Positions 47,498-64,000 of a stretch of 64,000 nt of DNA are shown piece after piece. Position 1 is the stretch's first letter, and every line of letters starts with the position of its first letter. Below the pieces are notes generated by a model, which worked only from the letters and a program-made list of their open reading frames with translations, ran no database searches and was not told the DNA's origin. Made by a program: the position numbers and the translations under genes. This stretch comes from Sulfurospirillum multivorans DSM 12446 (lineage in GTDB: Bacteria; Campylobacterota; Campylobacteria; Campylobacterales; Sulfurospirillaceae): the NCBI RefSeq assembly GCF_000568815.1, contig NZ_CP007201.1, forward strand, positions 1,054,001 to 1,118,000, in the 5' to 3' direction.

Positions 47498-47532
47498 CGT
47501 TCCTATCAGGCTTTGCGATAGGAACGTTTTTT
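47498..47532 (+). terminator. Rho-independent terminator after the ABC-SYLF-DedA operon
   Basis: Perfect 10-bp stem CGTTCCTATC/GATAGGAACG (47498-47507 and 47517-47526) followed by six T residues on the plus strand. It abuts the stop of the small minus-strand ORF at 47531. Confidence 0.85.
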
Positions 47533-47635
47533 AAAATATCTTATTGCTTAAAACAAGCATCTTCTGCTCAAAACGGTTCATAAATTCATTGTAGGCTTTA
47601 CGTGAGTGACTGATCGTACAGATTAAACTTTTCAT
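47531..47635 (-). CDS. Candidate 34-residue small protein divergent from the S24 repressor
   Basis: ATG 47635 with AGAGGAG six bases upstream gives 34 codons starting MKSLICTISHSRKAYNEF and ending before TAA at 47531. The peptide is basic and amphipathic. Its promoter would share the palindrome TTGTATACAA (47667-47676), which reads as a -35 box on both strands, with TATAAC as a -10 on the minus strand. The strong ribosome-binding site and divergent setting favour a real gene; coding status is unproven. Confidence 0.4.
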   Translation of the reverse strand: MKSLICTISHSRKAYNEFMNRFEQKMLVLSNKIF

Positions 47636-47666
47636 TGAAGGCTCCTCTGTTATAAAATTTTCACTA

Positions 47667-47717
47667 TTGTATACAAAATGAAAAATATGCTACAATAATA
47701 TTTCAAAATGAAATATT
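47667..47717. promoter_or_regulatory. S24 repressor promoter with two operator copies
   Basis: Plus-strand promoter: -35 TTGTAT 47667-47672, 18-base spacer, -10 TACAAT 47691-47696. A perfect inverted repeat spans 47697-47717: arms AATATTTCA and TGAAATATT around AAA, directly after the -10. The core CAAAATGAAA occurs again at 47674-47683 inside the spacer, exactly 30 bases (about three helical turns) upstream. This is the expected layout for autorepression and may also control the divergent small ORF. Confidence 0.65.
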
Positions 47718-47727
47718 GGAGGACAAA

Positions 47728-48387
47728 ATGCCAAATATTTTAGCGGTTTTGCATAAAGTGAAGGATATTCTCTCCCAAGAGTTGGGTGAACGTAAAGTAT
47801 TTGATAAGGATGTGGCGGAAGCTTTAGGGATCAATCAGCTGACCCTTGCGACGATGAAAAATCGTGCCAAAATTCCTTATAAAGAGATTCTTGAATTTTG
47901 TGCGAAACGTAAAATCTCTATTAACTGGCTTTTGTTTGACCAAGTCGTCGAGAGTTTGCAAGTAGAGACCGATAAATTTGCGCGGGTGCATTATTTTAGA
48001 GATATTTATGCTTCGGCAGGTGGTGGAGCGCTGAATGAAGACGAAGAAGGCGAGATGATGTACCTTGATGAGGAGATCGTTGAAAAGCTCGGTGGACTTG
48101 GGATGATTAAGCACATTCAAGCCATCAATGTTTTGGGCGATTCGATGGAGCCAACACTGTTTAGTGGGGATGTAGTGTTCATCAACAAAGAGTACACCAA
48201 TGCTTTAAAATCAGGTATTTACGTGGTCTCTACGCCTGTAGGATTGTTTATCAAACGCCTTCAACTGCATGCCAATGGCGCCGTAGCCTTGGTGTCAGAT
48301 AACGAAGCGTATGCCCCTGAACTGATCAATGCAGAAGATGTTCAAGTGCTTGGCAAAGTGGTTGGAAAGCTCTCTTCTAATATTTAA
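47728..48387 (+). CDS. S24/LexA-like CI-type transcriptional repressor
   Basis: 219 residues. N-terminal CI-type helix-turn-helix (FDKDVAEALGINQLTLATMKNRAKIPYKEILEFCAKRKISINWLLF), a linker with the Ala-Gly cleavage-like site YASAGGGAL, and an S24 peptidase domain with catalytic Ser in VLGDSMEPTLFSGD and Lys in FIKRLQ. It may self-cleave after DNA damage like phage CI, or act as a stable regulator. ATG 47728 with GGAGG five bases upstream is the natural start. Related operator sequence also occurs before the cas genes at 61092. Confidence 0.85.
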   Translation: MPNILAVLHKVKDILSQELGERKVFDKDVAEALGINQLTLATMKNRAKIPYKEILEFCAKRKISINWLLFDQVVESLQVETDKFARVHYFRDIYASAGGGALNEDEEGEMMYLDEEIVEKLGGLGMIKHIQAINVLGDSMEPTLFSGDVVFINKEYTNALKSGIYVVSTPVGLFIKRLQLHANGAVALVSDNEAYAPELINAEDVQVLGKVVGKLSSNI

Positions 48388-60550: not shown

Positions 60551-60570
60551 AATCTTTACATGTAAAGATT
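60551..60570. repeat. 20-base palindrome around a TTACATGTAA copy
   Basis: Perfect 20-base palindrome with AATCTTTACA/TGTAAAGATT arms, between the YbaK stop and the FIST start. The central ten bases are the iterated motif. Confidence 0.7.
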
Positions 60571-61049
60571 TAGTGCTTTGTTAAAGATGCACACATTGCT
60601 TTTGAAGCTTCAATAAGAACCAAAGGTGAAAGGCGCAGTTGCACACCCCGAAGCCCCGCACTGACGTACACTTTTTCATGTTGATGTATGCTTTCATCGA
60701 TAAACGTCGCGTAATGTTTTTTCATAGCAAGCGGTGAACACCCACCACGAATGTAACCCGTAAGCGCTAAAAGCTCTTTTACTGCCACAAGTTCGCACCG
60801 CTTAGCCTGCGCCACCTTCGCCAAAGCCTTCAAGTCTATCTCATCAGCCGCTGGAATGCACGCCACCACAATACGCTTAGCATCATCCCTCGCAACGAGT
60901 GTTTTAAACACACACGAAGCATCCACCCCAAGCGATGCCGCCGCATGCACCGCACTTAAGTCCTCTTCATCTACTTCATACGAAGTCATTTCATAAGGCA
61001 GTTTCAGTGTGTCCAAAAACCGCGCCGCATTGGTTTTTTTTAGGCTCAT
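60570..61049 (-). CDS. ybaK: Cys-tRNA(Pro)/Cys-tRNA deacylase, YbaK type
   Basis: 159 residues from ATG 61049 (AGGAAGAAA upstream). YbaK signature: TNAARFLDTLKLPYEM, VFKTLVARDDAKRIVVACIPAADEIDLKALAKVA, LTGYIRGGCSPLAMKKHYATFIDE and SAGLRGVQLRLSPLVLIE. It edits mischarged Cys-tRNA-Pro together with prolyl-tRNA synthetase. It is divergent from cas6; the operator-like repeat 61092-61112 overlaps its likely -35 region (TTTCAT, 17-base spacer, TACCAT). The alternative longer frame to 61091 is not preferred. Confidence 0.9.
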   Translation of the reverse strand: MSLKKTNAARFLDTLKLPYEMTSYEVDEEDLSAVHAAASLGVDASCVFKTLVARDDAKRIVVACIPAADEIDLKALAKVAQAKRCELVAVKELLALTGYIRGGCSPLAMKKHYATFIDESIHQHEKVYVSAGLRGVQLRLSPLVLIEASKAMCASLTKH

Positions 61050-61091
61050 ATTTTTCTTCCTAGAAACATTTTTAAAAAGATGGTAGCACAA

Positions 61092-61112
61092 AATATATCA
61101 AAATGAAATATT
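61092..61112. promoter_or_regulatory. Operator-like repeat between ybaK and cas6
   Basis: Matches the S24-repressor operator at 47697-47717 in 20 of 21 bases: arms AATATATCA and TGAAATATT around AAA, the single change being A for T at position 6. A further TTTTGAAA half-site follows at 61111-61118. It lies 61 bases before the cas6 start and overlaps the predicted ybaK -35 box, so it could control either or both. Confidence 0.6.
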
Positions 61113-61157
61113 TTGAAATCACTTGATAAAAATTGTAGTAAGATTATTTAATCTTAA

Positions 61158-64000
<2,843 letters not shown>

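Follow-up and report, generated by a model that had tools for sequence, protein, structure and literature searches.

Predicted SOS-like regulon of a CI/LexA-fold S24 regulator in Sulfurospirillum, with an operator between ybaK and cas6

In Sulfurospirillum multivorans, a 21-base inverted repeat beside the promoter of an S24-domain regulator gene recurs between ybaK and cas6. This raises the question of whether the regulator controls the cas operon, ybaK, or both, and which other genes stand under the same operator. All coordinates refer to the window, i.e., the whole stretch of 64,000 nucleotides that was analyzed. The features at the regulator gene were as follows.

47531–47635, minus strand: unannotated 34-aa ORF, MKSLICTISHSRKAYNEFMNRFEQKMLVLSNKIF, with the RBS AGAGGAG, divergent from the S24 gene
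47666–47671, minus strand: −10 of the small ORF, TACAAT, with exactly 28 bp between it and the operator core
47691–47696, plus strand: −10 box of the S24 gene, TACAAT; the core begins 3 bp further downstream and covers the start point
47697–47717, no strand assigned: S24 operator, reading AATATTTCAAAATGAAATATT, with the core ATTTCAAAATGAAAT at 47700–47714
47728–48387, plus strand: S24 regulator with a CI-type HTH (PF07022) and Peptidase_S24 (PF00717)

As an earlier sequence-only reading of this DNA had described, the repeat adjoins the −10 box of the S24 gene, and the copy at 61092–61112 differs from it by one mismatch. These were the only two places in the window within three mismatches of the 21-mer, while 100 dinucleotide shuffles gave none, and they were also the best two matches genome-wide (3,175,729 bp). 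The operator at 47697 is common to the S24 promoter and the divergent small ORF. Moreover, the palindrome adjoined the −10 at the regulator's own promoter in 30 of 30 Sulfurospirillum-type orthologues inspected. The same reading had reported a core repeated at 30 bases in this promoter. The repeat is present in the sequence, with CAAAATGAAA at 47674 and 47704, but its upstream copy was found in the three closest strains only; a conserved 30-bp tandem operator was thus rejected.

The genome was then scanned with the pattern AATATTTCANNNTGAAATATT, allowing up to two mismatches. Eight sites were obtained, all in intergenic promoter regions, including the hicA site, which crosses one unlikely 90-aa ORF and was still counted as intergenic. 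The targets were the S24 gene itself, recA (TIGR02012), a Y-family polymerase (IMS family match), dinD (NF008573, 362.6 bits against a cut-off of 242), a UDG-linked radical-SAM DNA-repair gene (TIGR03916, 548 bits), a Dam-type DNA adenine methylase, hicA, and ybaK/cas6. Because no −10 lies 28 bp from the operator at hicA, this gene was regarded as a weaker regulon member. Of the sites with three mismatches located inside genes, most were set aside as chance. In 24 genomes of the genus, 135 sites were found versus 24 for the reversed control pattern, and the sites at recA, the radical-SAM gene, and the Y-family polymerase were kept through the genus. Across the genus, the operator also stood beside five cytosine methylases and further restriction-modification genes, RhuM-like genes, and a Pif1-like helicase. 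Outside the genus, a recA site was found in G042 only, whose S24 protein is 58% identical and has the same operator at its own promoter; relatives outside the genus with another S24 protein or none showed no recA site. The link to DNA damage that had been suggested is supported by these predicted sites, because the same operator marks recA, the Y-family polymerase, dinD, and the repair radical-SAM gene. No operator was seen at uvr, ruv, or sulA, which counts against an SOS reading. The predicted regulon is larger than had been proposed from the two sites, as it spans repair, restriction-modification, an integron integrase, and CRISPR-Cas.

The regulator had been taken for a CI-type, possibly self-cleaving repressor, and the protein agrees with this family. 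Besides the CI-type HTH, it has the residues for self-cleavage, namely, Ala-Gly (in SAGGGA), Ser (in GDSMEP), and Lys (in IKR), and the Ala-Gly and all catalytic residues were kept in relatives down to 38% identity. The S24 autoprotease domain of canonical LexA is thus present, but the match to the NCBIfam lexA equivalog TIGR00498 reached 25.3 bits against a cut-off of 110.95, and the LexA winged HTH PF01726 (LexA_DNA_bind) had no match in the S. multivorans genome, S24 having PF07022 instead. Across 31 genomes, the LexA DNA-binding domain gave two marginal matches only (G018 and G048). No relative was found in the PDB by sequence; CI and LexA were found by fold comparison only, in which an AlphaFold2 model (pLDDT 82) matched phage 186 CI, LexA, and LexA on the RecA filament. 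The S24 gene was present in every one of the 24 genus genomes and in 49 of 60 relatives, S. diekertiae, S. cavolei, and S. arcachonense among the carriers, and is therefore no prophage gene. A prophage repressor was accordingly rejected, and the proposed link to phage induction found no support, S24 being a core chromosomal gene. ATTTCANNNTGAAAT is the predicted operator of this core, vertically inherited S24 regulator of the CI/LexA fold.

The position of the operator relative to the −10 was nearly constant. The distance from the core was 28 bp at recA, the radical-SAM gene, the polymerase, dinD, the methylase, and other promoters, and the best −10 lay at 27–29 bp in 24 of 30 listed promoters, which belong mostly to unrelated genes with a few orthologues (binomial p about 2e-21). 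The 27–29 bp spacing recurred in other families (G042 and G044). On the promoter side, ATTTT was strongly conserved, while the opposite flank was not, and the composite element (operator-ATTTT-N23-TAnnaT) had 13 matches in the own genome versus 1 for the control. An invariant spacing between operator and −10 is unusual for a pure repressor. The near-constant 28 (27–29) bp, cas6 included, thus suggests that the operator-bound regulator touches RNA polymerase.

This architecture would also fit a regulator that represses itself and activates its targets, being bound upstream (core at about −55 to −41) in contact with RNA polymerase, as ComR is; damage-induced cleavage or another signal would then alter activation. 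The fixed distance to the −10, its recurrence outside the genus, the one-sided conservation of ATTTT, and the composite element all favor such an activator. ComR-type XRE activator promoters share its layout, with a palindrome, a T-rich spacer, and a fixed distance to the −10, and a 1-nt change in spacing alters their response, although ComR itself is a peptide-sensing RRNPP activator with no S24 domain (PMC6703854). On the other side, the S24 SOS regulators described to date are repressors (PMC8565304), the positions over the S24 start point and 9 bp from the ybaK −10 are repressing ones, and cleaving an activator would turn repair off during damage. Activation, with either signal, is considered possible but the less probable sign. 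Repression was kept as the default because the known S24 SOS regulators repress, while activation stays a serious rival that the fixed spacing leaves open.

It is unlikely that the regulon is real and not damage-induced, with an S24 protein that undergoes no self-cleavage and responds to a different signal. Such a reading could draw on the fact that cleavage was deduced from residues alone and that the targets include several restriction-modification or mobile genes; however, recA, the Y-family polymerase, dinD, and the integron integrase are classical SOS genes, and the conservation of the Ala-Gly and the catalytic residues also argues for cleavage. That the repeat is merely a chance AT-rich palindrome or the stray site of a prophage repressor is highly improbable. 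The genome is AT-rich, and the 15-base core alone, at three mismatches, matched as many places as in shuffles, but chance is refuted by the shuffles of the full 21-mer, the 135 versus 24 sites, the promoter placement, the conservation among orthologues, the spacing statistic, and the composite element, and a core gene does not fit a stray prophage site.

Under the preferred reading of S24 as an SOS-type regulator, the gene served by the second operator was considered. The features at this site were as follows.

60570–61049, minus strand: ybaK, Cys-tRNA(Pro) deacylase (TIGR00011, 171.8 bits, above cut-off)
61080–61085, minus strand: putative extended −10 of ybaK, (TGC)TACCAT, 9 bp from the core
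61092–61112, no strand assigned: second operator, between ybaK and cas6, reading AATATATCAAAATGAAATATT, with the core ATATCAAAATGAAAT at 61095–61109
61139–61144, plus strand: putative −10 of cas6, TAAGAT, 29 bp from the core
61173–61889, plus strand: cas6, gene 1 of the cas operon (TIGR01877, above cut-off)
61886–63712, plus strand: gene 2 of the cas operon, in the cas8 position, with no family match
63727–63999, plus strand: start of cas7 (PF05107), which runs off the window

The operon had been called type I-B, and this assignment holds by way of a sister locus in G013, where TIGR03641 (Cas1b), TIGR02592 (Cas5b), and cas3 were above their cut-offs; the own cas locus follows the G013 gene order by ORF size and is followed by a long CRISPR array with a 66-bp period. 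Six genomes in which a cas operon is linked retained the site and the ybaK −10, and in all six the cas6 −10 lay 28–29 bp from the core, which is the standard distance of the regulon; the 9 bp of ybaK are an exception to it. Both elements were also kept in two genomes without cas6, in which the site is neighbored by a BrnT-like gene (G003) or the contig end (G005). The operator may thus serve ybaK alone, with the cas operon a bystander placed beside it. In addition to these two genomes, this is favored by conservation that does not reach past the site on the cas side and by cas6 genes located elsewhere (G007, G009, and G010), at which the site is absent. The cas6 geometry in all six linked genomes and the exceptional spacing of ybaK speak against it, as do most other ybaK genes of the genus, which lie in a different operator-free operon, and we regard service of ybaK alone as rather doubtful. 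Of the two targets left open earlier, cas6 is thus backed by the standard geometry, and ybaK by retention of the site where cas is missing. The operator probably serves both genes, because cas6 has the regulon spacing and ybaK keeps the site without cas, and control of cas6 by S24 is judged reasonably likely. As cas6 genes elsewhere lack the site, the predicted cas control is a property of the ybaK-linked locus rather than of Sulfurospirillum CRISPR systems in general.

The best reading of these predictions is that S24 is a non-canonical LexA with an SOS-like regulon in Campylobacterota, and not a LexA orthologue; its role as the SOS-type master regulator of Sulfurospirillum is considered likely. 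Predicted operators at recA, at a Y-family polymerase, and at its own promoter agree with a functional definition of an SOS regulator. In the proposed mechanism, the combination of a phage-CI-type HTH with an S24 domain of the LexA type would make S24 a functional LexA, whose dimer would bind ATTTCANNNTGAAAT. The operator at its own locus would cover the S24 start point and stand 28 bp from the −10 of the divergent 34-aa gene, and further operators would be those of recA, the Y-family polymerase, dinD, the UDG-linked radical-SAM gene, DNA methylases, mobile-element genes, and ybaK/cas6. DNA damage would lead to RecA-stimulated self-cleavage at the Ala-Gly and to loss of operator binding, and the repair genes would be switched together with cas6 and probably ybaK in species with the ybaK-linked locus. 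A more far-reaching proposal is tentative and held with less confidence, namely, a Campylobacterota SOS-type system in which S24 with a rigid promoter architecture activates or engages RNA polymerase, is paired with the 34-aa protein, and has defense genes, including type I-B cas, wired in.

Among known systems, the non-canonical LexA of Bacteroidetes is similar in that a phage-CI-type HTH and an S24 domain with Ala-Gly and Ser-Lys replace LexA, and in that its regulon has recA, a Y-family polymerase, and UDG-linked repair genes. However, it was reported as exclusive to Bacteroidetes, with the motifs CTAA-N5-TTAG and GGA-N5-TCC (PMC8565304), whereas the present regulator belongs to another phylum and has the operator ATTTCANNNTGAAAT in place of these motifs. 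The fixed 28-bp promoter geometry, the 34-aa partner, and the defense genes are specific to the present system in this comparison. UmuDAb/DdrR of Acinetobacter is also a LexA-less S24-domain damage regulator with a small divergent gene and a shared operator, the likeness of the small genes being one of layout only (PMC3978071, PMC11332147). Unlike S24, UmuDAb derives from UmuD and mainly controls error-prone polymerases, and Acinetobacter recA has no SOS box. Damage-induced type I-F CRISPR-Cas was reported once, in Acinetobacter baylyi (PMC3978071). E. coli LexA shares the S24 fold, autoregulation, and operators at recA, the Y-family polymerase, and dinD, but S24 has no PF01726 winged HTH, its operator is not CTGT-N8-ACAG, and its distance to the −10 is invariant.

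Campylobacter and Helicobacter were described without LexA and without a typical SOS response (PMC2390758, PMC2912397), and no paper on SOS in Sulfurospirillum was found in the open-access literature. A LexA substitute in related Campylobacterota would be another independent re-invention of SOS and, if true, would couple the expression of both CRISPR and restriction-modification genes to genome stress. The short motif and the promoter ruler would make the regulon readable in any relative.

Several further carriers of the operator were observed. DNA methylase or restriction-modification genes carried it at nine loci, and as so many such genes do, the damage response may extend to restriction-modification. 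An integron integrase (TIGR02249, 413.5 bits; G017, L206:1669-2634) had a perfect S24 operator upstream, so that a Campylobacterota integron may be under SOS control. A zinc-ribbon protein of 116–129 aa with the sequence MILGKCPYCGG was a conserved regulon member (five loci); it has no clear family, as its match to Lar-type restriction alleviation was weak (17.6 bits) and below cut-off.

Of 30 loci, 28 had the divergent ORF at a length of 34 aa; its pS was 0.75 versus a pN of 0.16, and the sequence beyond its stop was not conserved. It is under purifying selection and kept through the family, and a family search gave no match; a related short ORF lies near S24 in Sulfuricurvum. We regard this small protein as a new candidate for a role in the damage response. 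Some relatives have a second S24 homologue (four loci, 44–47% identical), carried by a small replicon in at least one case. These homologues are oriented divergently from a Y-family polymerase, and the operator between the two genes is shared. The existence of second homologues counts against the main reading of S24. Within the same family, a related genus (five loci) has a different palindrome at the S24 gene's own promoter, TTGATA...TATCAA, which perhaps reflects a shifted binding specificity.
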